Part shown: in pieces, positions 736 through 18,669 of the stretch
Numbering within the stretch: the stretch's first letter is position 1
Layout: each line of letters starts with the position of its first letter
Assembly: GCA_001768515.1 (NCBI GenBank)
Contig: MEOA01000032.1
Span: forward strand, 1-56,145
Direction of reading: 5' to 3'
From: Bacteroidetes bacterium GWE2_42_24
GTDB lineage: Bacteria; Bacteroidota; Bacteroidia; Bacteroidales; TTA-H9
DNA: 56,145 nucleotides
Made by a program: the position numbers and the translations under genes
The notes under the pieces: generated by a model
Told to the model about the DNA's origin: nothing
What the model saw: only the letters and a program-made list of their open reading frames with translations
The model's database searches: none

Positions 736-743
736 TTATGATT

Positions 744-776
744 ATCATTACCGGCGGTTATACCGCCGGCAATGAT
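744..776. terminator. Intergenic hairpin between the two T9SS paralogues
   Basis: ATCATT and CCGGCGGT arms pair with ACCGCCGG and AATGAT around a 3-base loop. No T tract follows on the plus strand, so it may be an RNA structure or a processing site rather than a simple intrinsic terminator. The copy at the right end of the window keeps the hairpin. There the loop-closing T-A pair has become C-G, which supports selection on the fold, although one stem mismatch is also present. Confidence 0.6.
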
Positions 777-791
777 TAAAAAAACTGTAAC

Positions 792-2684: not shown

Positions 2685-2717
2685 GATAGCGGGTCAAATC
2701 AATATATTTGTTTTCCC

Positions 2718-2750
2718 AGAACCCTGAAAGGTTCTATTTTGTCCTTTTTC
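2718..2750 (+). terminator. Rho-independent terminator after the T9SS gene
   Basis: AGAACC and GGTTCT form a 6-bp stem with a CTGAAA loop, followed by a T-rich run (attttgtcctttttc). It sits 34 bp after the stop codon and separates the T9SS pair from the phage tail genes. Confidence 0.7.
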
Positions 2751-2791
2751 CAGCACCTATCGCAAGGTAGTTTAGCAGCAAAACTATACCG

Positions 2792-3331
2792 ATGGGAGCT
2801 AGATTTCGCGAATACATGGCGGCTCAAGGTACCAACCGCCGCAGGCACGGGCTGGCAGGTGCCAACTTAGCCACTATACCTCTTGAGATAGAAATTCAGA
2901 ATGTAGTTACCAGAGACGAACTACCACAACTCAATGATGAGTTACTTAAGCAGTTCAACTCCGAGGTTAAGCAATGGGGAACTTCAGTTCTACAGGAACT
3001 GCGTTACAATATCCCCGAGATGGGAATAGAGGGGACGGAGCTTACAGATTCTCTTCGGACAAACTTCCGAAAGAATGCCGGAGGTATTAATCGCATCGGG
3101 TTTTCCTTTCGGCCTCATGGCGTTTATATCCATAAAGGAGTTGGGCGTGGATACCAGATGCAAGGAGGTGTGGTGGTCCGAACCGCCAAAGGAGAACCTA
3201 AACCTCAGGAACGATACCCGAAACCGTGGTTCAACCCAGTGATCGAAGCCTTTATTAATGATCTCAACCAGATCGTTGGCAAGTACTATGCTACGGCCGT
3301 AATGAATACAGTCAGAATTTACATCCCGTAG
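2792..3331 (+). CDS. Phage tail-completion / neck-like protein (HK97 gp10-like)
   Basis: A 179-residue protein at the head of a collinear tail module, 3 bp before the tape measure gene. The C-terminal half (FSFRPHGVYIHKGVGRGY, then a PKPWFNPVIEAFI segment) has the look of small HK97 gp10-like proteins that join head and tail: a basic protein with an HKG segment and a terminal amphipathic helix. This assignment is inferred from gene order and general appearance, not from a firm motif. An in-frame stop lies just upstream, so ATG 2792 is the first possible ATG. No head, portal or terminase gene precedes it; the next upstream gene is chromosomal, so the left end of the module looks cut here. Confidence 0.5.
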   Translation: MGARFREYMAAQGTNRRRHGLAGANLATIPLEIEIQNVVTRDELPQLNDELLKQFNSEVKQWGTSVLQELRYNIPEMGIEGTELTDSLRTNFRKNAGGINRIGFSFRPHGVYIHKGVGRGYQMQGGVVVRTAKGEPKPQERYPKPWFNPVIEAFINDLNQIVGKYYATAVMNTVRIYIP

Positions 3332-3334
3332 CGT

Positions 3335-6300
3335 ATGGCAACCAACATCAAAGACTTTCGTTTCTCGATATATATTAACAACGACGCTGCCAGGAAGTCG
3401 CTCATCGAGATGGAGCAGCTCAGCGATAAGTACACTGTCGCATTGGATAAATTGGCCAAGGCTGGCAAATCCAACACGGCCGAATATGCTCAAACAAAAA
3501 CAAAGCTCGACCAGGTTAAGGCCGCCATGACCGACATGAGCAGGCAAGCCGGCATCACATCTTTGTCAATCACTCAACTTACAGCACTAAAGAAAACCCT
3601 GAACTATGAGTTTTCAAGGGCCATTCCGGGTACAGCTCACTGGGAAAAATTAAAAACAGACATCCAGACTGTGAACGCGAGGATGTCTCAACTTCGCATC
3701 CAAAACAATCAAACTGGCCTCTCTATAGGTAAAATTGCCGATGGTATGAATCGCTACATCGGGATGATTACGATGGCCGCCGCATCCCTCACGGGTCTGA
3801 TTCTTGGAGTGCGCAAAACCATCGACGCCTATGCTGAGTGGGATGACAAGCTGGCCGACGTGATGAAAACAACAGGTCTCACCAAGGATCAGGTAAAAGA
3901 ACTTAACAACGAACTGGCAAAAATAAGCACCCGCACCCCGCAGATCGAACTGCTCAACTTGGCCAGGGATGCTGGTAAACTTGGGATAACAGGCACAAAA
4001 AACATTCGTGATTTTGTGGAAGCCGGTAACCAGATTAATGTCGCCCTGGGCGAGGATCTGGGTGAGGATGCCATCAAAAATATTGGCAAAATGGTTGGTG
4101 TATTCGAAAAATCAACCAAACAACTTCAGAATGCTGACCTTAAAACACAAATGTTGGCTGTAGGCAGCGCGGTCAATGAACTGGGAGCAAGCAGTACCGC
4201 CAGCGAGCCTTATCTGGTGGCATTTGCCGGACGACTGGGAGGTGTAGCCAAACAAGCCGGCATCAGTATGACTTCAATATTAGGCTTTGCTTCAGCCCTT
4301 GATCAGGACATGCAACAGGTCGAGATGTCGGCCACTGCACTTCAAAACTTCATCATGAAGCTGATGGGAGATCCAGCTAAGTTTGCAAAACTGGCTGGGA
4401 TCGAGGTAACAAAATTTACTCAATTGCTGAATACCGATGCCAATGCAGCTATAAAACAAATGCTGACGGCATTGAATCAGAAAGGAGGGTTCCAGGCACT
4501 AATACCGATATTTCAAGATATGGGACTCGATGGTGCACGCGCCACAGGTGTGCTGTCGTCCATGGCTGGCAGTATCGATAAGATTGAAGTAGCCCAGACC
4601 ATTGCTAACAAAGCAATGAATCAAGGGGTATCAATAACAAACGAGTATAACACGAAAAACAACACTGCCCAAGCTGAACTTGAGAAAGCACGTAAAGGAT
4701 TCCAGGCGATGGCGGTAGAACTGGGAGAAAGGCTTGCCCCGGCCATGACATTTAGCACTAACGGGATGAGTTACTTCCTGAAGGCTTTGAAGATTACCAT
4801 TGAGTTCGTTGCTGAACATAAACGAGCAATCGGTACTTTAATAATTACATTAATTACTTACCAGGCTACTGTAAAAGCATTAGCATTAATTGAGGCTATT
4901 CGCAACAAAGAAGGCGCTATCGGGTTGGCATTAATAAAAGCCAGAGCTCTGGCCGAGAATGCCGGAATCATTATAACACAAGCATACGCTGCGGCTACTA
5001 TGTTGTTATCAGGAAACATCAAAGGAGCCACGCAAGCTGTACGTGTTTTAAATACCGCAATTAAAGGATCGCCATGGGGTTGGTTAGCTGCTGCAATTGG
5101 CGCAGCAGTAGCATATTTAATCATTTTCAAAGAAAAATCAGACGAAGCATCAAAATTTACCGAGTATTACAATCAGGCACTAGAGCGAAATACAGAATTA
5201 CTTGTAGCAGAACAGGCTGAATTTAAAGGACTCATTCGCCAGGCTATGAGTGCTAATGAAGGCACTGAGCTTCGCAAAAACTTGATTGATCAACTCAACC
5301 AAAAGTACCCTGGTTTTTTAAGCCATTTAGATGCTGAACGTGTATCGAATGGTGAACTTTCCAGAATGCTTGACAACGTTAATGCTATGTACAGGCAAAA
5401 ATTCAAGCTCGTAAAAGAAAATGCCCGAATAGATGCTCTCACAAAACAATTGTCGGACAAAGAGCTGGAAAAAATGAAGATTGAAGATGAACTGGCTAAA
5501 CTTAGGGGAAAGGCTATAACTGATGGTACTAGTGAAGCTAAACGAGAAAAAGAACTTCAATCAAAATTATCACAGATCAACCTGGAGCAAAATTTAATTG
5601 AGGGTAATATTGAATTAGTTCAAAATAAGGCTAATCAAACAAAACAAGAGATTGAAAATATCCTTAATCCTTCAATTGATGAGCTTGAGAAGAAAATTGC
5701 CCAATATGATAAAGCCTGGAAAATTTACCACGATCGAGCATCTAAAGCAGAAAAAGAAGGTAGGCCAGAAGATCAAAAATATTATTTAGAGCAGTCAGCT
5801 ACAGTTGCTATTGCAAAAACTGACGCTGAAAATAAACTTGCCGTCAAGAAAAAAGAAGAAGAAGACAAGAAAAAAAATAGAAAAATAACCACTGATGATA
5901 ATATAGACGTTATAAACGGTAAAGTCAATCCAGCCGATAAAAAGGCAATGCTGGAAGCTAAAAGAGCTGAACAAAAGGCTTGGGATGAGCTTGAAAAAAT
6001 CCTTGACAAGGAACTGGAAACAGAAGGTAAGAACGGCAAAAACAATATTTCTAAAGGCCTTAATACAGAATTAAGCAAAGCTACTACCGATAAAAAAGAG
6101 AAGGATGCATTGGTTAAAAACCAAATGGACTTCGCTAATTCTATTAGGGATAGTGCATGGGCTTTAGCACAAGAAGAAATTGCTGCAGAGGAGGAAGTCA
6201 ATGAATTTTATAAATATGCTACTCAAGCAACAATGGCTGCAAAACAGCGACAGTTCGATGCAGCATTTCAATCACTTGACGACATAAAGGCTATTTTTAA

Positions 6301-6925
6301 TGAAGAAACGGCAGCTTTTAAAGCGGCAGCAATTGGACAAGCTATTATAAATACATATGCCGGTGCCACTGCTGCATTTGCACCACCACCAGTTGGTGCA
6401 GGACCTATTTTGGGTCCAATATTGGCCGCAACTACAATTGCAGCTGGACTAGCTAACGTTGCCAAAATTATTAATCCACAATATGCCGAAGGCCGCTACC
6501 CCGTGATCGGAGCCTCCGATGGCCATACCTATAACGCCGCTTATCAGAGCACGCCCCGCACAGGGTTATACACCAAAGCTACGCTGTTGGGTGGTTTGGG
6601 TCTGGTAGGTGAGCGGGGTTCAGAGATCGTGATCAGCAACCCACACGTTCGCCACCTGCAGATGAACTACCCCGAAGTGATCAATACCATCTACCGAACA
6701 GCAACACGTGTGCCACAATTCGCCGCAGGAAATTACCCGGCACCGGGATATGGAACAAACACACAAGCTGACCAACAGAAAAGTAATGGAAAGGAGGATT
6801 TAATGATAGAGTTGCTCACAAGAATAGCTCGATCAAATGAAAAACCATTCAGAGGCTTTATTACCTATAACGATTTGAATGATATAATAAATGAAGTGGC
6901 AAAAATCGAAAACGGATTAAAATAA
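3335..6925 (+). CDS. Phage tail tape measure protein (TP901 type)
   Basis: A 1196-residue protein. It starts with a coiled-coil head (residues 10-130). A tape-measure core follows (about 150-420), with the typical order AYAEWDDKLADVMKTTGLT, LNNELAKISTRTP, then LARDAGKLGI and GNQINVALGEDL. Two hydrophobic segments occur (about 495-515 and 580-600), then a long charged coiled-coil region (620-930), an Ala/Gly/Pro-rich segment near 1000-1045 and a GLVGERGSEIVIS motif near 1090 typical of the C-terminus of this family. It sets the tail length and helps DNA pass into the host. About 1,200 residues would suit a long non-contractile tail of roughly 150-180 nm at the usual 0.15 nm per residue. Transcription is with its neighbours, separated by 3 and 8 bp. 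Confidence 0.93.
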   Translation: MATNIKDFRFSIYINNDAARKSLIEMEQLSDKYTVALDKLAKAGKSNTAEYAQTKTKLDQVKAAMTDMSRQAGITSLSITQLTALKKTLNYEFSRAIPGTAHWEKLKTDIQTVNARMSQLRIQNNQTGLSIGKIADGMNRYIGMITMAAASLTGLILGVRKTIDAYAEWDDKLADVMKTTGLTKDQVKELNNELAKISTRTPQIELLNLARDAGKLGITGTKNIRDFVEAGNQINVALGEDLGEDAIKNIGKMVGVFEKSTKQLQNADLKTQMLAVGSAVNELGASSTASEPYLVAFAGRLGGVAKQAGISMTSILGFASALDQDMQQVEMSATALQNFIMKLMGDPAKFAKLAGIEVTKFTQLLNTDANAAIKQMLTALNQKGGFQALIPIFQDMGLDGARATGVLSSMAGSIDKIEVAQTIANKAMNQGVSITNEYNTKNNTAQAELEKARKGFQAMAVELGERLAPAMTFSTNGMSYFLKALKITIEFVAEHKRAIGTLIITLITYQATVKALALIEAIRNKEGAIGLALIKARALAENAGIIITQAYAAATMLLSGNIKGATQAVRVLNTAIKGSPWGWLAAAIGAAVAYLIIFKEKSDEASKFTEYYNQALERNTELLVAEQAEFKGLIRQAMSANEGTELRKNLIDQLNQKYPGFLSHLDAERVSNGELSRMLDNVNAMYRQKFKLVKENARIDALTKQLSDKELEKMKIEDELAKLRGKAITDGTSEAKREKELQSKLSQINLEQNLIEGNIELVQNKANQTKQEIENILNPSIDELEKKIAQYDKAWKIYHDRASKAEKEGRPEDQKYYLEQSATVAIAKTDAENKLAVKKKEEEDKKKNRKITTDDNIDVINGKVNPADKKAMLEAKRAEQKAWDELEKILDKELETEGKNGKNNISKGLNTELSKATTDKKEKDALVKNQMDFANSIRDSAWALAQEEIAAEEEVNEFYKYATQATMAAKQRQFDAAFQSLDDIKAIFNEETAAFKAAAIGQAIINTYAGATAAFAPPPVGAGPILGPILAATTIAAGLANVAKIINPQYAEGRYPVIGASDGHTYNAAYQSTPRTGLYTKATLLGGLGLVGERGSEIVISNPHVRHLQMNYPEVINTIYRTATRVPQFAAGNYPAPGYGTNTQADQQKSNGKEDLMIELLTRIARSNEKPFRGFITYNDLNDIINEVAKIENGLK

Positions 6926-6933
6926 CATTATTC

Positions 6934-8460
6934 ATGTCTATAAGCCTACAACAGACTCCCGGCCCAGTAAATCTCCTCTGCGACGAGGTGAAGCTGGCAT
7001 TCATAGCAAATGGCCGTTTACAGATACCCGGGAGCAAAGCTCAGGCCACATTTGGAAATGTCCCGGGAATTAATATGCCTACAGGACACTGGGTAGAACT
7101 TCAATGGAACGGCATCACCGAACGAATATACTTCGACGGGCTTAATACTTCCGGCAATTCGTGCACAAAACTCACAACCACTAATGCCCAGATCTGGACC
7201 CGGGATCATCTTGCTGAGGCTCTCAGATCGAATTATAACATTGTACACGATTTTGATGTGAATGTTACCACCAACAATTCACTAACCTTAACAACCAGAA
7301 ACAAGCAGGCCACAGGCCTTACCATCATCCAGCGAACCGGGTATAACCCTGGGATGTGGTTTTACGTGAACAACCAGGGGGCAGATCCGGTATATCAGCC
7401 AGGTTATGCCATCATCGTGCAGACTTATGTAAAAACAGCAAATGGTGTCACTACGCTGGTAAATGAAGACCGCTTGACACCCGATTCTTCAGGGTATGCC
7501 GAAGCCGATTTTGGTGAGCTGCTGCGTGGTTTTGTAACACCTGTTGTCGCAATCAGCAACAACGAATTAGTGACAAAGCGTACCAGCATGGTATGCACCT
7601 TCTGGTTCCGGTACGGTGAGGTTTGGAATGGCGACTACCAACGCCTGTATACAACACCAGAATACAAAGGAATATGGGGCGGGCTTAGTACCGTGGCAAA
7701 AAGTTATATAGACAACAATATGGCAGACTGGTACCAGCGTCTGCAGCTTGACAAACTATTTCTTAACAACATGCCTTCCTACATCCCTACCACAACCCAG
7801 GCACCGCAGCGCCTCTATTGGATGTGTATGCAGAGTGGACTGGCCTCTGTCAACATAAAAATGAAAGGATGGAACACTGGAGGCATAAACAACGATGTTG
7901 TGGCTACAATTGCCAATCCTGAGCAATACATGATTTACGAGATTGATACCTCATACCAGCGAATGATGTATAACGGGTGGGCAGCTCCTAATGATCTGCG
8001 CTACGAGATAACAATCCAGACAACTGACGGTACTATACTGGCCGGTCCACAGGGGTACTGGATAGACAGGAGGCAATCGAGGCATGAACGGTATTTCATG
8101 TTCCGGAATTCACTTGGCGGGTTCGACACCCTTATTGCCCGCGGACTTCAAGATACAACATTGCAGATAGACCGCTACATTACACAGTACAACGCCGACG
8201 GACTACGACAAGCGTGGCGTAACGAGGCAAGCCGGCAAATGACTCAGAACACTGGTGGGCTCAGGGCTGATTACAAACGATACCTGGCCGAACTTATGCT
8301 GTCTACTTATGTACAACTTATTGTGCCTGGACATAGAACACTCAACGTGATCATAACCGACAGCGAGGTCAATACGGATACCGATGACGAACAACGTCCG
8401 ACGCTCGAATTCACTTTCGTACCTGCATCAAAGGATCAGTTTTATTCAAGATATTATTGA
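6934..8460 (+). CDS. Phage tail protein, distal-tail or baseplate candidate
   Basis: A 508-residue protein directly after the tape measure, where siphoviruses place the distal tail protein. It has no signal peptide or membrane segment and is rich in Asn, Thr and aromatic residues, as in beta-sandwich virion proteins. The N-terminal 100 residues (GPVNLLCDEVKLAF, TFGNVPG, WNGITERIYFDG) look like a beta domain. The C-terminus (TLNVIITDSEVNTDTDDEQR) ends in an acidic turn. I do not recognise a named family; the role is inferred from position only. The stop codon lies 2 bp before the ATG of the next gene, so the two are probably translated together. Confidence 0.6.
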   Translation: MSISLQQTPGPVNLLCDEVKLAFIANGRLQIPGSKAQATFGNVPGINMPTGHWVELQWNGITERIYFDGLNTSGNSCTKLTTTNAQIWTRDHLAEALRSNYNIVHDFDVNVTTNNSLTLTTRNKQATGLTIIQRTGYNPGMWFYVNNQGADPVYQPGYAIIVQTYVKTANGVTTLVNEDRLTPDSSGYAEADFGELLRGFVTPVVAISNNELVTKRTSMVCTFWFRYGEVWNGDYQRLYTTPEYKGIWGGLSTVAKSYIDNNMADWYQRLQLDKLFLNNMPSYIPTTTQAPQRLYWMCMQSGLASVNIKMKGWNTGGINNDVVATIANPEQYMIYEIDTSYQRMMYNGWAAPNDLRYEITIQTTDGTILAGPQGYWIDRRQSRHERYFMFRNSLGGFDTLIARGLQDTTLQIDRYITQYNADGLRQAWRNEASRQMTQNTGGLRADYKRYLAELMLSTYVQLIVPGHRTLNVIITDSEVNTDTDDEQRPTLEFTFVPASKDQFYSRYY

Positions 8461-8462
8461 AA

Positions 8463-10556
8463 ATGATTACGATTAAAAAAGATGGACAGCCATTCGACCT
8501 TGGTGATATAAAAATGACATTCAGGCTTCGCTCACCGCTTTGGAATGACATCCCCTCACATACATTCAGCTTTGACATTGATGCTACCGACCGAAACTTA
8601 AGACTAACCGGGTACCTGCATCGTCCTTCATCAAACCTTGACGGCAAAACAGATATTCCGGTACAATGCTCCATTCACGGGTGGATAATGGGGGCCACGT
8701 TACGTGTGGAATTAGCAACAGAGAAAACAATCCGTTGCCATTTGGCAATCGACAACGGACAAATGAATGTGGGATGGGGGGATCAATACCTGAATGAGAT
8801 GGATTTTCCAACCATCGCCCGAAATGGCGGAGTTAGTATGATAATGCTTTACAACAAAGACAAATCCTCCGACCAGGTGGCTTGCCAGTTTCCACCAATA
8901 AGAATCCCTGAATTTTTCGGGAGTATGGAATCAGACGACGCATTGACTTATACCGGTTGGGTAAACTATTATGATCCGGAAACAGGGCAATACAAGTTTC
9001 CTACTGTTGATTTCAACAATGGATCTATCAGGGTACCCACTGTATCGGTACCACAGTTTTATCTCAGGTGGATAATTCGTCAAATTGTGGAGTTAAACGG
9101 GATGAAATTAGATCCGCGGTTCATGAGCACGGGGGTACTAAAAGAGATGCTGGTGTTTAACAACCGGTGTTGTGAAGAGAAGCGCCGACGTGATTATTTT
9201 AGGGCAACAAAAACGGCGCAACAGACATATTCCAACCGATCGGTATTGATCTTTAATGATGAAACAACGCCACCCAATGCCGACGACAATAACAGCTACA
9301 ACCCTGTCACCGGACAGATTACTATTCGAAATTCCGGGGTACATGAGATTGCTATCGGAATTAATGCTACAGCATTGGATGGAAAACGTTACGCTATTAT
9401 TGACGGGTACTCGTATCTTCTTAACGAAGGATTTACCTTAATTAATCATACTCATTATTATGGGACAAATCAGATTGGCCACACTTTTTATTGTGAAATA
9501 TACTGCTATTATACAGATGGCGAAGTTGAATATCCAGTCCCGATAACCGTTCTTGCGAATTCATACATGGCTGGACGTAATTCATCATTGAGTGACCTAC
9601 CAGGACTTTATTCTGATGGCTTCATTGACTCTAAATTTCACATGCCACATGTTAAAGTAAAGGATTTTCTGAAATGGTTATTGGATGGATTTGGGATGGC
9701 AACTATATTTGATGCTGCGGCAAACCAGGTAAAGTTTGTAGTGCTTGATGAAGTACTTAGGAAACCTGCCAGCCGACAGCTGGGCAACCTGGATGAGGGA
9801 ACCGAGTACTCTCCGGCCCTTATAAACGGGATGAATTACGAGTTTGACATATCTTCCGATGATGCACCTGTGGTTGATCAGGTCTCCGGGCTTGAGTTCC
9901 TTGGTAACTTTGCAACTACTTACGAGCTTCCAATGCCGGAAAACTCCAGCTACTATGCCTATGTATATACAATAGGCAAATTCTACGTATATGAATGGAA
10001 CGATACATCTGCCAGGTATGAATGGCAGCCAAAAACAGACTATATCAAACCCTTGACTACAGGTTTAGGAGAAATGGAAGTAAAGCCCGCATGGCATCCA
10101 CCGGTAAATTTTTATGAAGGAGATATTTTTGGAACCACACCGTGGATCGGGTGTTCAGGTAGCTCACCATACTTTAGGGTAGGAATCAACAGTACTCCTT
10201 TTCTACTTATGATGTACCATGGCTTGCAACCCGGGATGCTGAGAGTTGACGATATAGTACAGCCTTTCCCGTATGCATCTGGATTAAGGTTCAATGCAAT
10301 AGGCGAAGAGATTATAACGCTGGAATTATCGTGGGAAGGAATTAGAGAAAAATTTCTTAAAACAGTGGAAGATTTTTATCAGAAACGCTGGATGCTCGAA
10401 GGCAAAAGAGAAGTAGATGCTGCATGGCTCAGGCAACTATCATGGGAGGAATCGTACCTTCATAAAGGTAGGGAGTATCTTCTGGATACTGTTGAGTTTA
10501 CCGCCACGCACCTTGGATTTACCTCTGCCAAGATTACAGCCTGGCGAAAACCCTAA
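8463..10556 (+). CDS. Phage tail protein, baseplate hub or tail-associated candidate
   Basis: About 697 residues from ATG 8463. A TTG at 8457 overlapping the previous stop is an alternative start. The N-terminus (MITIKKDGQPFDLGDIKMTF, then LRSPLWNDIPSHTFSFDI) resembles the first beta domain of tail-associated hub proteins, and the order tape measure, distal tail, hub fits. No peptidase or lysozyme motif is visible. The C-terminal 150 residues hold a helical, Trp-rich segment (WEGIREKFLKTVEDFYQKRWM) that may be the tip connection for the fibre genes. The function is inferred from synteny; sequence alone gives only a virion-like composition. Confidence 0.6.
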   Translation: MITIKKDGQPFDLGDIKMTFRLRSPLWNDIPSHTFSFDIDATDRNLRLTGYLHRPSSNLDGKTDIPVQCSIHGWIMGATLRVELATEKTIRCHLAIDNGQMNVGWGDQYLNEMDFPTIARNGGVSMIMLYNKDKSSDQVACQFPPIRIPEFFGSMESDDALTYTGWVNYYDPETGQYKFPTVDFNNGSIRVPTVSVPQFYLRWIIRQIVELNGMKLDPRFMSTGVLKEMLVFNNRCCEEKRRRDYFRATKTAQQTYSNRSVLIFNDETTPPNADDNNSYNPVTGQITIRNSGVHEIAIGINATALDGKRYAIIDGYSYLLNEGFTLINHTHYYGTNQIGHTFYCEIYCYYTDGEVEYPVPITVLANSYMAGRNSSLSDLPGLYSDGFIDSKFHMPHVKVKDFLKWLLDGFGMATIFDAAANQVKFVVLDEVLRKPASRQLGNLDEGTEYSPALINGMNYEFDISSDDAPVVDQVSGLEFLGNFATTYELPMPENSSYYAYVYTIGKFYVYEWNDTSARYEWQPKTDYIKPLTTGLGEMEVKPAWHPPVNFYEGDIFGTTPWIGCSGSSPYFRVGINSTPFLLMMYHGLQPGMLRVDDIVQPFPYASGLRFNAIGEEIITLELSWEGIREKFLKTVEDFYQKRWMLEGKREVDAAWLRQLSWEESYLHKGREYLLDTVEFTATHLGFTSAKITAWRKP

Positions 10557-10618
10557 ACTGTCCTTTGAACCAGAGGTCTTTGAATTTATGTTTGCGGAAA
10601 TTTAAAATCTAAAAGCTT

Positions 10619-10873
10619 ATGTTCCCACAATCAGCAACTCCAGGCGAGGAGCCAGCCAAAACAAGGATCAAGAATAATCCTGATGGCTCAGCGGTGATTT
10701 ATCATGGATTTCCAGCCATGAATAATCCTACAACCAGCGAGCCGGCATGGGCTATCCGTCAAACAAAAGTCTCTCCAGATGGTACCGAGATTGACCAGGC
10801 ATGGGCAAATGGCAACCGGGACAAAACATGCGTTTTTGACCAGAGAGAAAGCTACAAATACAAAACAATCTGA
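10619..10873 (+). CDS. Small phage tail-region protein
   Basis: An 84-residue soluble protein between the hub-like gene and the fibre genes. The central part (EPAWAIRQTKVSPDGTEIDQ...) followed by a short aromatic end (FDQRESYKYK) matches the general form of small proteins found beside tail-fibre genes in Bacteroidota prophages: a predicted compact beta fold with a W-x-I core. No catalytic motif is visible. It could be a fibre adaptor or a minor baseplate part; this is inference from position. Confidence 0.55.
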   Translation: MFPQSATPGEEPAKTRIKNNPDGSAVIYHGFPAMNNPTTSEPAWAIRQTKVSPDGTEIDQAWANGNRDKTCVFDQRESYKYKTI

Positions 10874-10903
10874 TCAGATTTAAACAATTAAAATGTAGGT
10901 GTT

Positions 10904-11728
10904 ATGGCAAAAACAAGTGTAAATACCGATTTTCTCACCGGGAAACAAGTAATGCATCGTCATCTTGGTGGTGATATTCCGGATATCTCAGACTACATTG
11001 GCCAACCACTCGGAGTATTCTTGATAGAATACCCAGCAAATCCAACTAAAGGCAGATATGACTTTGCAGGTATTAATGAAACTGTTATTTCCGGGACAAC
11101 ATATTATGAAGGTGATTCGGCGTTTTACGATGGGATTTCAACCTGGACACGCGTACCCAAAGGACAAGGGCCACAAGGCGAACCGGGGTCTGCTGGTGCT
11201 GACGGTGCTCAAGGGCCACAAGGCGAAGCGGGGCCAGCTGGTGTCAACGGAGCTCAAGGGCCACAAGGCGAACAGGGGCCAGCTGGTGCTGACGGTGCTC
11301 AAGGTCCACTGGGTGAGCAGGGACCTGCCGGTGTTGACGGTGCTCAAGGTCCACAGGGTGAACAGGGACCTGCCGGTGTTGTCCCTATAGCATCTAAAAG
11401 AGCCACTTCATTCAATGGCTCTGTTTCCATTAACTGTGAAACCGATTATATTCTTGAAGACCCGCAATATAAAACCGGAACACTGACAACAGGAAACAAA
11501 CTTATAGGATTATTAAACCCTGTACTAAACAAAACAATCACTTGCCTTATTCCAAAACTTTTATCTACCACTGTGATTGTGTTACCTGTTACTGTTGATC
11601 TACTGTTAGGTAATTTTAGTACAACAAAACCGAACATCTTAATGATTCACTGTATTTCAACAGATGAAAGCTCTTACATGTACTTAGCTACAATAAGTCA
11701 ATCAAACTGGGAGGATCCTGCATTATGA
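10904..11728 (+). CDS. Collagen-like phage tail fibre protein
   Basis: A 274-residue protein. Residues 1-85 form an attachment domain ([20 protein letters not shown] onward, with a short G-I-S-T-W strand). Residues about 87-160 are a continuous Gly-X-Y run made of five near-copies of a 15-residue unit ([15 protein letters not shown] and variants), which would give a rod-like triple helix. Residues 165-274 form a beta-rich tip. Collagen-like rods of this kind are known in phage tail fibres. The stop overlaps the start of the next gene by 4 bp (ATGA), so the two are coupled and probably assemble together. The repeats could change in number by slippage or recombination. Confidence 0.85.
11162..11383 (+). 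repeat. 45-bp tandem repeat encoding Gly-X-Y collagen units
   Basis: Five units (the first lacks one codon) each encode about 15 residues. Units 2-5 start near 11204, 11249, 11294 and 11339. The units differ by point changes, some of them synonymous, so the array is not a recent pure expansion. Confidence 0.9.
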
Positions 11729-13767
11729 GATATCCTGCACTGCCATTTTTCATGACTACAATCGGGAAGAGATTTTCTAACCCAAATGCCATGTATGTTG
11801 AATTGACTTTTCCGTCAGCTCCGGTAATTGAACTCCAGAAGGCAGATCTGCTTTATGACAAAAAACTGGCCATATCAATGAGGTTCGATGATGGATATCG
11901 TAGTCCGTTCACCAACAGTGTTGCGCTTTTTTTAGGTGGGGAAAATCATCGTGATGAAGAACTGAATGTTCATGAAGGTTTTTACTACACAGATGGTTGT
12001 GGTAATAATATTCCGTATGTTGCTGACTTTGCTGCAATCATTGCGGTTATAGAAGGTAGTGGTGCCGGAACTGAATACCTAAGCTGGGACGATTGCCGCC
12101 AGGCCCGGGATTATGGCTATGGCGTATTACCTCACGAAGCAAACATAAGCATTGATCTGACAGACGAATCTCCCTATGCCGACTGGTTAGCTGATATGGC
12201 TGAAAGTATGCTATACTACTTTAATGAACTAGGTTTTAAGCCGATCGTCGCTACAGCAAGTACCGGTGACTTGAGGTGGTCGTCAATTCTTGATTCAGGA
12301 GTTTATAAATCACCCTATTTCGATAATGGGCTATTGTTTATGGAGGCAGATGCCAACCCGCATATCTGTGCCGGCGTAGGTTACGCAAATGACAGGATGT
12401 ATGGTTTAGACCTGAAAAGTATCACTCGGGAAAGCTTTGGACATGGACAGCCTTATCCAATGTTCTACCATTCAAAAAGGATATTGCGAGTTGATTCTTT
12501 GCCAGCAGTTGGTGAACTTTACTGTGTTTACATTCTTCCGGATGATACAATGCATCGTTGGAATGGAACTAGTTATGATATCACTACAGAAAGTTTAGCA
12601 GGCGGAGCTTCATTAGAACAAATAAAGACTGCAGCAATTAATTGTATTAACGCTTCAGGCGCAAGGGCATTTACTTTATTCACTCACAGGTTGACTTATG
12701 ATCCAGCCGAGAATGATAATGGAGGTAATTATCTCCCATATTACAAGTCAGAGATATTGCAATGGCTCGACACAAACTACGGCAAGAATGGTTCTGATCA
12801 GTTGTTATTCGCCTCGGCAAATACAGTCGCTGAATACGTTTACTGCAGGGAGTTTTCTACGATCAACACCTATTACGAGGGCAACCGTATCATTTTGGAG
12901 ATCATCCCTCCCGACAACCCCAACATGTTGTTACGCAGACCTGCTTTAACATTGAAACTTAATAGTAATGTTGCCCCAGACTCAGTTAATATCTTCAACA
13001 TAGATCGTTTCAGTGAGAACGTTGTAGGTAACACACAGGGTATAATCAATGTTGAATGGAGTTCAGAATATTACAATACAGCGTTAAGGTATGTTGTGGC
13101 TCTTGAGGCTACCCCGACACAAATTCGAAAGGATGATGCTTTTTATTTTACATCATTTGTATCTGATCCCGCAAAAAAGAACGCGTTAATGCAACGTATC
13201 AATGCTGTAGAAATACCTCAGGACAGGACTTATCTGATCGACTTTGGATATGGAGGAACTGACGTGACACCACCGCCGTTTAACAACATCACAAATGTCA
13301 CAACCGCTACACAGAATGTAAACATCCTGGACATCGACGGGGTTGATAACGGAATACTGTGCTCAATCTACGCAGCATTTGCATCAATTTATGGTACCGG
13401 AATTTCTGGTAGCTATTATTTCCCTGTTACAGCCGTTATGGACTGCTTCTTATCTCAGAAATCGGTTGCCGGTATTGTCAAATTCTCGGGTCTCGATAAT
13501 TCGAAGATTTACAGATTCAGGGTCAACAATAACCGACAGTATCAAGATTACATAACGACATTCAGGTTGTATAACAGTTTAGACTCAGGAGCAATTGGCT
13601 ATGCTATCGAAACAGCCACCAGGGCTTCTAGTCCGGATGGATATGTTGATATTACCCCAATACAACCCATTGAGGGAGTTTTATACCTTAGTGTCCTCTC
13701 TGAAGACGCTTCTGCTAATGCGTATGGAGCTCTAAGCGCTTTGGAGATACTGGAGTATTCAGAATAA
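11725..13767 (+). CDS. Phage tail-tip protein with polysaccharide-deacetylase-like domain
   Basis: A 680-residue protein. Residues about 47-330 look like a NodB-type polysaccharide deacetylase fold: the strand [16 protein letters not shown] carries the first catalytic motif (S/T-F-D-D-G), with a His at [10 protein letters not shown] as a candidate metal ligand and a late [11 protein letters not shown] strand. The second motif (H-x3-H) is not clearly complete, so activity is uncertain. Residues 400-680 are beta-rich and probably bind carbohydrate or form the trimer. In this place, beside a collagen-like fibre, it most likely removes acetyl groups from host capsule or surface glycan during adsorption. 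It overlaps the previous gene by 4 bp and is the last gene of the tail module. Confidence 0.75.
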
Positions 13768-13946
13768 CTGATAAACAAAAAATACGACTTACAAAGGAAC
13801 AAGCTTCTCATTAATTTACATATTATTAGCCATTTTCAATTTGCTAATTACTCAGAAGCGGTAAAAATTTTTCGATCTGTGTACAACTGGTATTGGAAAT
13901 TTTTACATTTGTAACCTGACTACAGATAAACCAAAATCATTTTCGT

Positions 13947-14267
13947 GTGAAACAATATTTTTCCATAGTACCAGGGCAAAATTTGGGTGAACCACTAAAA
14001 GGAAGCAGTGTTGAACAGGGGATGAAAGGCGCAGGACACAATGAAGAGTCCGGGAAGCGAACTACATTACACACCTTACGACATAGTTTTGGCACCCACC
14101 TGCTTAAAAGCGGAACAGACCTGCGATATATTCGGGAACTACCTGGACATAGCAGTGTAAAAACCACGATGGTTTATACACACATCACACCAAAAGCTAA
14201 ACGAAAAATCGTAAGCCCGCTCGATAATCTTGTAAATCAACACAATAATAATTCAGCTCATCATTAA
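13947..14267 (+). pseudogene. Tyrosine recombinase, C-terminal fragment
   Basis: A 106-residue remnant that can be read from GTG 13947. It keeps the end of a lambda-type integrase catalytic domain: H-T-L-R-H-S-F, then LPGHSS, then the tyrosine in MVYTHITP, ending SPLDNL. The N-terminal SAM-like domain and the first catalytic Arg region, usually about 250 residues, are absent. The upstream 180 bp hold no matching frame. It is therefore unlikely to be active alone. Its position directly before the GTTAGC-bounded cassettes suggests it is what remains of the recombinase that built or moved them. An attachment to the phage module is the alternative. Confidence 0.75.
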
Positions 14268-14295
14268 AAGTGATATATTTATGATGATATATACT

Positions 14296-14339
14296 AGTTA
14301 GCGGCAAGGCTTGGGCGGCAGTGCTAACTTTGAAACATT
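14296..14339. repeat. GTTAGC/GCTAAC inverted repeat, cassette boundary (attC-like)
   Basis: AGTTAGC at 14296-14302 and GCTAACT at 14333-14339 face each other across 30 bp. The GTTAGCGG form recurs at 15987 (GTTAGCCA) and, altered, near 16979 (CTTAGCGG), each time just before a new gene. This is what cassette junctions of an integron-like array would give. The assignment is inferred. Confidence 0.45.
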
Positions 14340-14391
14340 TTGCAACAAAAGAACAGTGACAAAAATTAACTTAGCGACTTGATAATATAAA

Positions 14392-15297
14392 ATGAAAATA
14401 TATTTAGCGACAAATTACAAGACAGTTAATCCAGTCCGAGAAGCTATAGAATCAATCTCTGGACGGCTTAACCTGCAATTGTATCGGGCTGATTATCTAA
14501 ATATTGAGGAGCAAATCGTTCCTCAAATTATTGAGACAATTAAAAAATCTGACATTGTTATCGCTGATATTTCCAATGAGAATCCTAACATTTATTACGA
14601 GGTGGGAATTGCCCATTCGCTTGACAAGCCAGTTATCCTTGTGAGTCAAACAGACAACTTCAATCGGTTCTCACTTCTTTCGTATCGTTTTTACAAGTAT
14701 GACATTAACCCGACAGGAATACGAAATTTAGCTTTCCGCTTAGAGCAAATTCTATCAAGCCCAAATGAGATAGAGGAATTAAAACCTATTCAACCTACCA
14801 GACAGGTTCTGACTTTCAAAGAATTTTCGGGCAACATTCAACTGCAAAATATTTTGCAACTAAATGGAGCAAGACGAGGATATGAATTTGAACAATGGGT
14901 TTTTGAATTATTGCGTGACATCCCAAATTTAGAAGTTGAACACGGAGTAAAAAGAAAAGACGGTGAATACGATTTCATTGTTTGGAATTCCAATAGCGAT
15001 AAAGAACTTGAAAGTTTAGGTAATCCTATTCCAATTGAGGCAAAGGCAACAATAAAAATCGGCAATGACCTACTTTATTCCTTAGCAAGTAAAGCGAGCC
15101 TTCAAGGATTTAAATCTTTTGTTCTTATCACGACAGCAGAAATTTCATATAGCAACGAAAGGTTAATTCAAAGTTTAAAAACTAACACAGGAGTTTCTAT
15201 TCTAGTCATTGGATTTAATGAACTGCAAAACATCAATACGAGCAAAGATTTATACTGGGCAATTAAAAAATCATTCAGGGAATATTTCATTTCATAG
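14392..15297 (+). CDS. Deoxyribosyltransferase/TIR-like domain fused to PD-(D/E)xK nuclease
   Basis: A 301-residue two-domain protein. Residues 1-120 show a Rossmann-like fold of the nucleoside 2-deoxyribosyltransferase/TIR-like type: MKIYLAT start, SDIVIADIS strand (53-61), then NPNIYYEVGIAH (64-75) with Glu70 where such proteins hold their active-site acid, and PVILVSQ. Residues 155-285 look like a restriction-endonuclease fold: GYEFEQWV helix, EYDFIVW strand with Asp194, and IEAKA with Glu216-x-Lys218, the PD-(D/E)xK triad. The first domain may sense or cleave a nucleotide and the second cut nucleic acid. The stop overlaps the GTG of the next gene by 1 bp. A defence or toxin role is inferred from architecture and cassette context. 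Confidence 0.75.
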   Translation: MKIYLATNYKTVNPVREAIESISGRLNLQLYRADYLNIEEQIVPQIIETIKKSDIVIADISNENPNIYYEVGIAHSLDKPVILVSQTDNFNRFSLLSYRFYKYDINPTGIRNLAFRLEQILSSPNEIEELKPIQPTRQVLTFKEFSGNIQLQNILQLNGARRGYEFEQWVFELLRDIPNLEVEHGVKRKDGEYDFIVWNSNSDKELESLGNPIPIEAKATIKIGNDLLYSLASKASLQGFKSFVLITTAEISYSNERLIQSLKTNTGVSILVIGFNELQNINTSKDLYWAIKKSFREYFIS

Positions 15298-15830
15298 TGT
15301 TTGACTTACCTACATATCAAGCCTTGTTGGCTGCAGTTGATGCGGCAGTAACCCCAAACCAAAAAGGTGACAGGTTTGAGGAATTGTGCGAATATCTCTT
15401 GACAAAACTCACAGGCGTAAATATTGAAGCAAGAGACCCATTGATGGCTTCGGAGGAGCTTGACCTTGTTTTGTGGAATGCACAGACAGAAGAAGTTTTA
15501 AAACCATTTGACAATACAATTTTAGTTGAGTGCAAAAATTGGAGTTCTGCTGTCGGTGCTCCTGCATTTGACAGTTTCATTTCCAAAATGAGAAGAAGAA
15601 GTTTGAAGACAGGAATTTTTATAGCTGCGAATGGCGTGACAGGTGACTTTCTTAATGGCAACGGAAATGATGGAGCCATTGACATAATTAAGTCTTCACT
15701 TGCAGAAGGGATTAGAGTAATAATTATCAACAGAACTGACATGGATGCAATAGCAAATGTTGATGCGTTGAGGACACTAATTAAGAAAAGATATTGCGGC
15801 TTATTCATTCATCGTCCATTCAACAATTAA
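15297..15830 (+). CDS. Mrr-like PD-(D/E)xK nuclease
   Basis: A 177-residue protein read from GTG 15297, which overlaps the previous stop (TAG) by 1 bp, so translation is coupled. The fold is Mrr/restriction-endonuclease-like: KGDRFEELCEYLL helix with Glu28, ELDLVLW strand with Asp56, LVECKNW with Glu78 and Lys80, then a helix carrying a KMRRRSLKTGIFIAANG segment typical of Mrr_cat proteins. All three catalytic residues are present. It lacks a separate DNA-reading domain, so its partner may direct it. Both proteins of this pair carry a nuclease fold, which is unusual. The cassette boundary starts 33 bp after the stop. Confidence 0.78.
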   Translation: MFDLPTYQALLAAVDAAVTPNQKGDRFEELCEYLLTKLTGVNIEARDPLMASEELDLVLWNAQTEEVLKPFDNTILVECKNWSSAVGAPAFDSFISKMRRRSLKTGIFIAANGVTGDFLNGNGNDGAIDIIKSSLAEGIRVIIINRTDMDAIANVDALRTLIKKRYCGLFIHRPFNN

Positions 15831-15862
15831 TGAAAGCACTCACTCGGAACAGCAGCCCAGCC

Positions 15863-15992
15863 GCTAACAAAAACTATATGTCAATTGGGGTTTCGGTGCG
15901 GACAACAAAGTTCGCAGCCCGCAACAACGGCATCGGGGTTCGACAGAAAAGCAACCCGCAATCCCCAACTGCATATAGTTCCGTCCGTTAGC
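15863..15992. repeat. attC-like imperfect palindrome (130 bp)
   Basis: The left arm (GCTAAC, then ACTATATG and a TTGGGG block) pairs with the right arm (CCCCAACT, CATATAGTT, then GTTAGC) across a variable centre of about 70 bp. The arms differ by unpaired bases between the outer GCTAAC/GTTAGC boxes and the inner boxes, as in integron attC sites with R and L boxes and extrahelical bases. Its length is within the known attC range. It falls between two unrelated genes of the same strand. Confidence 0.6.
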
Positions 15993-16013
15993 CACAATTA
16001 AAACAAACAAAAT

Positions 16014-16892
16014 ATGAGATACTTTAAACTAAGTTGGATTCTACTTCTAACTATTTCATTATTTAGTTGTAATAATGAAAAAATGAAAAAAAATGCAGAA
16101 AGTCAAGTTTTGGAATTTTATTCTGCTGTTAGAGAAGGTAACGAAGAGAAAATGAAGGCTCTATATAAAGGCGCTACAAATCTGAGCAGTTATTACAAAT
16201 CTGACACAGCAACAATTAAAGAAATTATGATTGTTGAGAATAACAAGATTGAGATAAAAACGATTAATCAGTTCACTAATGGATATGGGAAAAAGTTTAA
16301 TCAGGAAATTGATTTTTATCTTAAACCCGATTCAGTAAATGAGCTTGACTATATTATTTATGATTCAAAAGGACTTTGTGGATATGATGATAATTCGACA
16401 TATTCTTTTGGAATGAAGACAGGTTGTATATCTAAAGGCGACAAAACAGACCAAGAAATTGCTAAGAAATTAAAGATTGCTGATGAATTACTGTTATTAA
16501 AAAGTCTTGATGTCTATTTAGATTTGAAGAAAAATGTAAATATTGTAAATTGGAGTTGGGAGTCTGGTTATGGCGGTTCAGCAAGTGGAAAAGGAATCGT
16601 AAAAAATGCTTCAACTTTTAATTTGCCTGATTTGAAGTATAAAATTACCTACAAAGATTATTATGGTAACGAGATAACAACAGATGATGGAAGTGTTACC
16701 TATGATAAGTTTTATGCAGGTGAATCAAAATCATTTACATTTTATACAAGTTATGTTGGGGATGCTTCAAAAGCAAGTATAGAATTGGTTTTTGATGATA
16801 AAATGATAATGGATTATGTTGCCAGTAAGGATTATACGGGCAAAGAATATCAAGAATACATAGCAACCAGGGATTCGACAAAGAAAAATTAA
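16014..16892 (+). CDS. Lipoprotein of unknown function (cassette gene)
   Basis: A 292-residue protein with a lipoprotein signal: hydrophobic residues 5-18 and an LFSC lipobox with Cys19. Residues 25-60 (ESQVLEFYSAVREGNEEKMKALY) form a helical NTF2/SnoaL-like start, the usual form of proteins that carry a small cone-shaped domain at the envelope. Residues about 165-260 look like an Ig-like beta fold (NIVNWSWESGYGGSASGKGIVKN..., KYKITYKDYYG). No catalytic residues stand out. The gene is low in GC and is the only gene of its apparent cassette, 22 bp after the GTTAGC junction. The partner or ligand is unknown. Confidence 0.7.
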   Translation: MRYFKLSWILLLTISLFSCNNEKMKKNAESQVLEFYSAVREGNEEKMKALYKGATNLSSYYKSDTATIKEIMIVENNKIEIKTINQFTNGYGKKFNQEIDFYLKPDSVNELDYIIYDSKGLCGYDDNSTYSFGMKTGCISKGDKTDQEIAKKLKIADELLLLKSLDVYLDLKKNVNIVNWSWESGYGGSASGKGIVKNASTFNLPDLKYKITYKDYYGNEITTDDGSVTYDKFYAGESKSFTFYTSYVGDASKASIELVFDDKMIMDYVASKDYTGKEYQEYIATRDSTKKN

Positions 16893-16990
16893 CTGTGGCT
16901 TATAAATAGGACTCTGAGTGGTCTGCAAGACCCAGCGAAGAGTACAGGTTGAACTACATCCCATAATAGGCTATGTACTTAGCGGCAGTT
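16890..16990. repeat. Possible degenerate third attC-like site
   Basis: TTAACTGTGGCTTAT after the lipoprotein gene can be paired loosely with ATAGGCTATGTACTTAGCGG near 16967-16986. The outer box is CTTAGCGG rather than GTTAGCGG and the arms match poorly. If real, it closes the second cassette. Confidence 0.25.
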
Positions 16991-17092
16991 ATTGGAATAA
17001 TTCAGAGAAAAATCGGCTGTTGTGGTTGAAGGTATTACTGAACTTAAGGTAACTAAAGCTATCTGATTCTGATGGAATAGAGTAATAAATGA

Positions 17093-17278
17093 ATATATGA
17101 GAAACCACGCTACTTCCGTAACTACAATTACATCGACCTGCCACATGAGAAGAGCATCGAACCAGGAAGTCTCTGGAAAGAAACCGACGGCATGATGATC
17201 CTGGTTGATGATGACGATTTTGTTTGCATCAGTACTTACAATGTTGTTGACTTTAAAGAAGTTGATATTTTGGAATGA
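17093..17278 (+). pseudogene. Gene remnant, 61 codons without a start
   Basis: The frame is open from 17093 to the TGA at 17276 and reads as a well-behaved acidic protein (YFRNYNYIDLPHEKSIEPGS, then ETDGMMILVDDDDF and YNVVDFKEVDILE). No ATG, GTG or TTG precedes this segment in frame, and a stop lies just before it. It is likely the 3' end of a gene lost when the island formed. An intrinsic terminator follows at 17312. I cannot name a family. Confidence 0.4.
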
Positions 17279-17311
17279 AGACACAGGCAACTTAAGAAAG
17301 GATGCAAATAC

Positions 17312-17340
17312 CAGGGCCCCTCTTTTTCGGGGGGCTTTTT
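17312..17340 (+). terminator. Rho-independent terminator
   Basis: GGCCCC and GGGGGC arms around a TCTTTTTC loop are followed by TTTTTTATT. It serves the remnant reading in from the left and faces the end of the integrase gene. Confidence 0.7.
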
Positions 17341-18494
17341 TATTCCCCAAACACCGGGAAAGTCGACCGAAGAGCCACATTAGGCCTACGCCTAAACCTG
17401 TCAAGATATTGCTGAGTTTGCTCAAGGCTGTGGTGACGCATCTGTAATTGAATGCTTCGCATATCAACACCGGCATCTACAAGGCGTCCGGCACCAGTAT
17501 GTTTCATGGCATAGATGGTTTTATTAGCATCGAGGTTAGCAGCCCGGCGGTACTCATCCCAGGCACCATCAATACGAGTCTGTGCTACTTCAACAACTCC
17601 AGGTTCAAGCTTTTTAGAAAACATGAAATAATGTGCCGGCATCCACTCAATTTTTTTTAACTGTTCGAGTAACGGGTCGGGGATATCAACCATCTGGGTT
17701 TGCTTGTTTTTGGTTTGTCGGCCACTTAGCACGATGATATGCCGGTTAAGATCAACATCGCCATAACGCATTCTTACAATCTCCTGAGGCCGGAGAAAGC
17801 AATAATAAACAAACTGGGCCACTAACCACAGACGATAATTAAAGCGAGGTAATGATTTCGCGATATATGAAAGTTCATCATTGGTATATGCAACTATCTC
17901 AGCCTGCTCAATCTGTAACGGCTCGAAACTGATAAATGGGTTGATGATAATGTATTCACGCTTAATCAACATCGAAAAGAACATCTTCAGCGTTGCAAGG
18001 TGGTTGTTGTAAGATCTGTTTGAATAACCGGCATCACGCTTCAGACTATCAAGATATTCCTGAGCATGTAGTTTGGTAAAGTCGGATACCATCGTCCCCT
18101 TCATTTTTTTTGATGCCAGGTATCTGATAAATGCATTAACGACATGCCGATAAGTATATGAAGTTCTTTTCCTTAATATCCTAAGCTTCACATCAACCAT
18201 TTCATTCAAACAGGCGATGAGATTTGAATACTGTCTTTCACTAGATTGAAAAGGGTTCCAGCCTTCAGATAATTTCTTTTTGTACTCTTTTATAATCCGG
18301 TGTCCTTCGTCACGCCTACCAGATTTTGTATATATCTTACTGGATATAAATATTTTGAATAATTTAAACTTACCATCGTCAGGCGATTTGTAAGAATAAA
18401 AAACATACCAACGGGAGTCAAGACTTCCATCAGCATCATAAAGTTTAGGAATTTTGAAATCAGTCAACATGCTAAATGTGGATTTAATCCCCAT
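17340..18494 (-). CDS. Tyrosine site-specific integrase (prophage/island type)
   Basis: A 384-residue integrase from ATG 18494; a TTG 21 bp further up is an alternative start. The N-terminal arm-binding part (about 1-95) contains YVFYSYKSPDDGKFKLFKI. A SAM-like core-binding domain follows (110-200, with TKLHAQEYLDSLKRDAGYSNR). The catalytic domain holds LRPQEIVRMRYGD with the first Arg, KHTGAGRL in place of the usual H-x-x-R motif, MRHHSLEQT, and the nucleophile in QYLDRF. The KHTG variant is common in Bacteroidota prophage integrases. The gene starts about 100 bp from the 3' end of a tRNA-Met, the normal layout for an element inserted in a tRNA. It probably moved the accessory region to its left. 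Confidence 0.9.
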   Translation of the reverse strand: MGIKSTFSMLTDFKIPKLYDADGSLDSRWYVFYSYKSPDDGKFKLFKIFISSKIYTKSGRRDEGHRIIKEYKKKLSEGWNPFQSSERQYSNLIACLNEMVDVKLRILRKRTSYTYRHVVNAFIRYLASKKMKGTMVSDFTKLHAQEYLDSLKRDAGYSNRSYNNHLATLKMFFSMLIKREYIIINPFISFEPLQIEQAEIVAYTNDELSYIAKSLPRFNYRLWLVAQFVYYCFLRPQEIVRMRYGDVDLNRHIIVLSGRQTKNKQTQMVDIPDPLLEQLKKIEWMPAHYFMFSKKLEPGVVEVAQTRIDGAWDEYRRAANLDANKTIYAMKHTGAGRLVDAGVDMRSIQLQMRHHSLEQTQQYLDRFRRRPNVALRSTFPVFGE

Positions 18495-18595
18495 TATATC
18501 AACATCTTGCAACAACTGATTTTTTCAGGATTTTCTCAAAATAGCTGAAGCAAAACACGTAATTGTTTGAACCTCAGCTATTTAAAGAGGTTTTG

Positions 18596-18669
18596 TAGCG
18601 GGAACGAGAATTGAACTCGTGACCTCCGGGTTATGAATCCGACGCTCTAACCAACTGAGCTACCCCGCC
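18596..18669 (-). tRNA. tRNA-Met (anticodon CAU)
   Basis: The minus strand folds as a complete cloverleaf: acceptor GGCGGGG with TCCCGCT (first pair G-U, last pair G-U), TA, D-arm GCTC...GAGC, anticodon loop with CAT (plus-strand 18633-18635) and T-arm ACGAG/CTCGT, followed by discriminator A. CCA is not encoded. The acceptor and D-arm resemble elongator Met tRNA rather than the initiator or the lysidine-modified Ile form, but a CAU anticodon alone does not decide this. Confidence 0.93.

Follow-up and report, generated by a model that had tools for sequence, protein, structure and literature searches.

The window, a stretch of 56,145 nucleotides (nt) from Bacteroidetes bacterium GWE2_42_24 (GenBank assembly GCA_001768515.1, contig MEOA01000032.1, positions 1 to 56,145), contains two overlapping genes that are predicted from their sequences to encode a matched pair of DNA-cutting subunits. 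The pair comprises the following features:

14392..15297, plus strand: gene 1, large subunit; 301 amino acids, ATG start; a DNPH1/TIR-like N-terminal domain (N-domain) fused to an Mrr-type PD-(D/E)xK nuclease domain
14392..14775, plus strand: N-domain of gene 1 (residues 1-128); E70 kept, residue 46 is Ile
14839..15294, plus strand: nuclease domain of gene 1 (about residues 150-301) with D194, E216, K218 and E167
15295..15299, plus strand: TAGTG stop/start overlap of gene 1 and gene 2, 1 nt common to both
15297..15830, plus strand: gene 2, small subunit; 177 amino acids, GTG start; a lone Mrr-type nuclease with E28, D56, E78 and K80

The G of the gene-1 TAG stop (15297) is also the G of the gene-2 GTG start. 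In the gene-1 protein, E70 lies in NPNIYYEVGIAH and D59 in ADIS, and D194, E216 and K218 were located as well; the coordinates, the 1-bp overlap, the GTG start and all residues named for both genes in an earlier sequence-only reading of this DNA were thereby confirmed. Gene 1 matched Pfam Nuc_deoxyrib_tr (PF05014.21) at residues 38-88 with 1.4e-5 and 25.6 bits, below the cut-off of 28.8 (the same protein carries PF05014.22 in a precomputed family table), and Mrr_cat (PF04471) at residues 163-261 with 9.4e-5 and 22.9 bits, above the cut-off of 21. Gene 2 matched Mrr_cat with 3.4e-9 and 37.3 bits, above the same cut-off, and both genes carry the conserved D...(D/E)xK residues. AlphaFold models reached a predicted local distance difference test (pLDDT) score of 84.3 and a predicted template modelling (pTM) score of 0.56 for gene 1, and 86.6 and 0.84 for gene 2, and the nuclease core is present in the predicted folds.

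The homology of the two nuclease modules is directly observed (98.7%, E 1.5e-16), as is the conservation of both predicted active sites: D56, E78 and K80 of gene 2 are kept in 120/120 sequences, and D194, E216 and K218 of gene 1 in 143, 143 and 137 of 144, respectively. The fold of gene 2 matches those of R.BspD6I, EcoT38I, AspBHI and MspJI among others, and by the VIA aligner its top matches are the nuclease parts of both R.BspD6I subunits. Two related proteins were seen elsewhere (L086, 2259-3170 on the minus strand; L028, 9548-10438), in which Mrr-type nuclease domains are fused to a response-regulator receiver, the nuclease part of L028 having been identified by the gene-2 search and not by a Pfam Mrr match. 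Each adjoins an open reading frame (ORF) that resembles a histidine kinase by eye, and from sequence it is possible that these loci are two-component systems with a nuclease output.

The fold of the N-domain matches the Nuc_deoxyrib_tr/DNPH1 type, and its listed fold matches are nucleotide-handling and TIR-type proteins. Among 144 gene-1 sequences the Glu70 column holds Glu in 99, Gln in 43, Leu in one and Ala in one, and both nuclease sites persist in the 43 with Gln; on a tree of 76 of the 144 sequences the Glu/Gln state requires at least two gains or losses. The column of DNPH1 Asp80 (Asp69 in rat), which we take to be the catalytic aspartate of DNPH1, contains Asp in none of 143 letters (one gap), and the window protein has Ile46 there. 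A nucleoside deoxyribosyltransferase or DNPH1-type enzyme was therefore rejected, as the family lacks the Asp and only part of its members keep the Glu; of the deoxyribosyltransferase/TIR-like domain proposed earlier, the fold type stands and the membership among the enzymes does not. The N-terminal part is also replaced in one locus on a viral-contig record (L030, 8488-10486), where a pentapeptide-repeat protein with a C-terminal nuclease motif overlaps a gene-2 homologue, apparently the same nuclease pair with a different input domain. Retron-type NADase effectors exist, and the N-domain might likewise act catalytically as an effector, either as an NADase or as a nucleotide N-glycosidase (compare TIR, DUF4062 Swarozyc and retron-type proteins), with the nuclease pair as DNA sensor or second effector; in the 99 sequences that keep Glu70 an enzymatic N-domain may indeed occur. 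We consider this explanation of the pair unlikely, since Glu70 is lost in many members in which both nuclease sites stay, since its state has changed at least twice on the tree, and since another domain takes its place in L030. More likely, the N-domain is a swappable, often non-catalytic input and no enzyme of the deoxyribosyltransferase or TIR kind. Fusions of the N-domain elsewhere in the Bacteroidota (19 of 20 stretches) had varied partners and gave no clear verdict on sensor or effector, and were not used as evidence.

Gene order and coupling of the pair are directly observed. In 20 of 27 genome loci found via gene 2, a gene-1 homologue lies directly upstream (L002-L021; the upstream ORF stops short in L016 and is truncated by the end of the contig in L019), so that the two genes do not occur mostly apart; at each of the remaining seven (L022-L028) there is a single, longer protein with a different N-terminal part. 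The pair was also found in one viral contig (L029), in 3/3 plasmid records examined of five found, with plasmid-borne copies in Agrobacterium and Sphingomonas, and in E. coli, where two of 5,426 genomes carry it and the two genes bear the annotations hypothetical protein and restriction endonuclease. Across 20 pairs (the window and 19 loci, all chosen for a gene 1 already seen upstream, leaving out L013 and L014, with the proteins of L011, the near-copies L018, L066 and L067 of L017, L065 and L063, respectively, and the incomplete L016 and L019) the spacing between the genes ranges from -14 to +3 nt. In the same set, distances correlate between N-domain and gene 2 (r 0.868), gene-1 nuclease and gene 2 (r 0.880) and N-domain and gene-1 nuclease (r 0.905), a correlation that follows from co-inheritance and does not imply contact between the subunits. 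Ten of 18 gene-1 clusters with a longest contig of at least 8 kb share an identical longest-contig size with a gene-2 cluster; the other eight are no evidence of orphans, the gene-2 listing comprising 120 of 178 proteins.

The pair is rare and patchy yet phylogenetically broad: by record titles its hosts belong to at least six phyla (Bacteroidota, Pseudomonadota, Bacillota, Actinomycetota, Cyanobacteriota and Methylomirabilota). Gene-2 matches better than 1e-50 were obtained in a single genome, that of the window, among 395 from its phylum, in one of 274 genomes of the Kangiella class, one of 194 of the Calothrix phylum and one of 246 of the Streptomyces phylum (the centre genome in each of these three samples), and in none of the other 1,105 genomes sampled. 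Weaker matches were 3.4e-14 in the window's phylum (the receiver fusion L086), 1.3e-19 and 1.1e-15 in the Calothrix-phylum sample and 3.9e-11 in the Streptomyces-phylum sample. The gene-1 alignment yielded no confirmed match among viral contigs, gene 2 was absent from phage records, and tblastn with gene 1 gave only partial N-domain matches among the matches listed from phage (16) and plasmid (22) records, none of them covering 80%. In the Streptomyces apocyni assembly the pair is present three times, each time on a contig of its own and with identical proteins (L011, L013 and L014); these are either real copies or an assembly duplication.

More defence-type matches lie near the pair than in control stretches. 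For 20 loci, ORFs lying no more than 8 kb from the pair were compared with PADLOC at 1e-10, taking 243 of 254 ORFs (ten of L018 and one 6.3-kb ORF of L017 were left out); one batch of 125 ORFs matched 180 families and another of 118 ORFs matched 229, compared with 24 families for 117 control ORFs from eight distant stretches, which belong to seven of the pair-bearing genomes (117 of 219 ORFs and 8 of 15 stretches, all of them neither actinobacterial nor plasmid). The ORFs came from a simple caller and some are spurious, and because overlapping models inflate family counts, matches of single proteins weigh more. Forty proteins (39 neighbours and one window gene), picked by eye and mostly large, were scanned singly. 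Known or candidate defence proteins occur near the pair as follows:

L002: PDC-S14 (5.9e-92)
L003: SPARTA TIR-APAZ-type (8e-135) and short Argonaute (2.2e-196)
L004: Gabija GajA (3e-241) and GajB (1.8e-221)
L005: type I restriction
L006: PLD helicase (1.9e-254) and dGTPase
L012: PDC-S32 (2.4e-65)
L017: PDC-S66 (4.6e-57)
L019: PDC-M68B (1e-149)
L020: PD-T4-6 (3.2e-88), a kinase model that may represent a generic kinase
L021: PDC-S49 (1.2e-123)
L063: Hachiman HamB and HamA (4e-135), PDC-S01 (2.3e-176)
L065: AbiLi (2.5e-66)

At least 12 of the 20 loci thus have such a neighbour at 1e-50 or better, a lower bound with hand-picked attribution in which several of the 12 are candidate (PDC) models only. 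With one or two neighbours scanned singly per locus, none reached 1e-30 in L008, L009, L015 and L029, nor did any of three in L064; the singly scanned set covers the loci other than L007, L010 and L011. No locus was assigned to a second GajA/GajB match or to matches to DndA/SspA, the last of which may be ordinary cysteine desulphurase. In E. coli a HamB-like helicase (1.6e-31) lies directly upstream of the pair at 16612-19494 of L065, and in L066 a DEAD/DEAH helicase by annotation occupies the same place (8612-11494); these helicases could be a third component there. The pair is often found near known defence genes, as the sequence-only reading required of a defence system, and the defence reading is well supported by genomic context.

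Neither gene has a specific model in PADLOC-DB 2.0.0 (the only matches were a TIR effector at 2.8e-5 and PDC-S02 at 0.0071), NCBIfam gave no match for the window's genes, and the pair is undescribed in the open-access literature searched, which is weak evidence of novelty as most subscription papers lie outside that search. Identity with a PADLOC, NCBIfam or published system was thus not found, the earlier statement that no such system is described holds within these sources, and the pair is probably an undescribed antiviral system. By analogy, its nearest working counterpart would not be a TIR system but R.BspD6I, a heterodimeric restriction endonuclease of type IIS: in both R.BspD6I and the pair, a large subunit with an extra domain and a nuclease is encoded together with a small lone nuclease of homologous fold. 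Unlike in R.BspD6I, the large subunit of the pair carries a DNPH1/TIR-like domain instead of a DNA-recognition domain, and no BspD6I chain occurs among the PDB sequence matches of the gene-2 profile up to E 1. From the nucleotide N-glycosidases DNPH1/Rcl and MilB (Nuc_deoxyrib_tr) gene 1 differs by its fusion to a nuclease, by the lack of Asp in all 143 letters and by Gln for Glu in 43 of 144 sequences. Swarozyc (DUF4062) and TIR-like NADase proteins, which place a TIR-like fold in a defence setting (PMC13174449), share this fold with gene 1, but gene 1 matches PF05014 and not DUF4062, there are two nuclease modules, and the Glu is not family-wide. Avs4 has an Mrr-type nuclease at its N-terminus, whereas the pair is without a STAND ATPase and has two nuclease subunits instead of one. 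Hachiman HamAB, like the pair, consists of two genes, a nuclease and a partner, and adjoins the pair in Agrobacterium; its HamB is a helicase sensor (PMC12278908), whereas neither gene of the pair matches a helicase in Pfam.

Taken as the whole explanation of the pair, a sensor-gated heterodimeric DNase has, in our view, about an even chance of being right. The homologous nuclease modules of the large and small subunits would join into one heterodimeric DNA-cutting enzyme, each subunit perhaps cutting one strand as in R.BspD6I, and the DNPH1/TIR-like domain of the large subunit would likely hold the enzyme inactive until phage infection is sensed. More speculatively, the cue would be a nucleotide, such as a phage-altered deoxynucleotide or a signal of the TIR type, and the result might be destruction of phage DNA or abortive infection. 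The single complex with two nuclease sites envisaged by the sequence-only reading gains circumstantial support from the homologous modules, the fixed gene order, the co-divergence and the resemblance to a heterodimeric restriction enzyme; the fold of the N-domain, for its part, makes control by a nucleotide signal plausible.

Several points weigh against this reading, in addition to the co-inheritance that accounts for the correlated distances and to the many members that keep Glu70. D194, E216 or K218 is altered in nine of 144 gene-1 sequences, in five of these by K to R. By Foldseek's own score EcoT38I is the top match of gene 2 (7.0e-5) and RNA polymerase subunit E the second; the nuclease fold is widely distributed and, because Foldseek puts EcoT38I first, the ranking of BspD6I depends on the second aligner. 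The fold matches did not extend over the gene-1 nuclease domain, and since the pTM of gene 1 is the lower one, the relative placement of the two gene-1 domains is uncertain. The heterodimer is suggested by sequence and analogy, both proteins having been modelled singly, and nucleotide binding by the N-domain is putative. In L030 the upstream gene has no Pfam nuclease match, its nuclease part being assigned from motif and alignment. Finally, the window pair sits in a phage-tail/integrase region and not in a classical defence island, and the next gene of its cassette (16014-16892) had no PADLOC match at 1e-30.

Alternatively, the pair could be a restriction-like heterodimeric endonuclease that reads DNA directly, its N-domain contacting a (modified) base in DNA and not a free nucleotide. 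The Mrr_cat family and the similarity of gene 2 to restriction enzymes speak for this, but we regard it as distinctly unlikely, since nucleotide-handling and TIR-type proteins make up the listed fold matches of the N-domain and since the three flanking window ORFs scanned by Pfam include no methyltransferase, a result that would suit control of the enzyme by a signal and not by modification of host DNA; a methyltransferase-type ORF occurs in L006, about 7 kb from the pair.

Beyond the sensor-gated heterodimeric DNase itself, it is possible, though doubtful, that the pair is the founding member of a group of split, sensor-swappable defence nucleases, which would have arisen by ancient duplication, with one strand per subunit and an exchangeable input in the large subunit. 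The commonest input would be a former N-glycosidase that has lost its chemistry and reads the nucleotide pool of the infected cell (e.g., a phage-modified deoxynucleotide) to unleash cleavage. If the sensor-gated heterodimeric DNase is the right explanation, the architecture of a split heterodimeric restriction enzyme would have exchanged the recognition of DNA sequence for that of an infection signal, and nucleotide sensing would be linked directly to DNA destruction in two genes. The small size of the pair and its occurrence in E. coli make it directly testable, and the Glu-to-Gln clade provides a natural experiment on whether nucleotide-hydrolase folds serve in immunity as enzymes or receptors.

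The surroundings of the pair in the window comprise the following features:

13947..14267, plus strand: tyrosine recombinase remnant, C-terminal part only (Pfam 2.8e-16, PHROG integrase 6e-19), just upstream of the cassette
14297..14305, plus strand: GTTAGCGGC, left boundary of the cassette; GCCGCTAAC at 15860-15868 is its reverse complement
15863..15992, plus strand: attC-like site directly after the pair; 130 nt, GCTAAC ... GTTAGC, imperfect palindrome
17340..18515, minus strand: tyrosine integrase of the surrounding element (PHROG integrase 1e-39, Pfam 3.6e-15); coordinates from the first TTG
18595..18669, minus strand: tRNA-Met, beside the integrase

The window pair looks, by its sequence, like part of a mobile gene cassette, as had been proposed: the attC-like site has R''/R' cores and a palindromic fold as in integron gene cassettes (z -2.90; 0/200 shuffles fold as well). 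The genome holds another 13 matching pieces, of which four lie within 8.1 kb on contig C34 and are separated by ORFs. ATATACTAGTTAGC stands at the left boundary of the window cassette and before the C34 array, which is also preceded by a similar recombinase remnant (XerC-like by eye). Complementarity of the boundaries holds for the window cassette (9/9 nt) and not consistently in the C34 array, so that no general rule is drawn from it. Genes of phage tail type, among them a tape measure (1e-75) and a collagen-like tail fibre, occupy 1-13767, and this region together with 17340-18669 is a probable prophage or tail-type element, the left end of which may run off the contig because the window starts at base 1 of contig C32. 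The tRNA-Met is a possible integration site; a second copy of its 3' end was not found. Rfam gave five matches over 13800-17400, all below the gathering score. In E. coli an integrative element that also has trb genes and an integrase lies between tRNA genes and bears the pair at its end, so the pair travels by several vehicles. A mobile-element DNA-processing or addiction module without a role in defence, to which the cassette near an integrase, the E. coli element and the Agrobacterium and Sphingomonas plasmids would point, is very unlikely in view of the strong defence-protein matches that adjoin the pair in at least 12 of 20 loci.

Following the attC-like site, the next cassette gene of the window (16014-16892) is a lipoprotein-like ORF with no Pfam or NCBIfam match. 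The integron-like cassette array on C34 (L109; G000:C34:49000-62415) has attC-like repeats near 3184, 5946, 8354 and 11141, with an ORF that by eye resembles a reverse transcriptase of the group II intron type about 600 nt past the first, shortened repeat match; the ORFs between the repeats are, by eye, of type I restriction type, a pair of helix-turn-helix/PIN type, an acetyltransferase and of DUF262 type.
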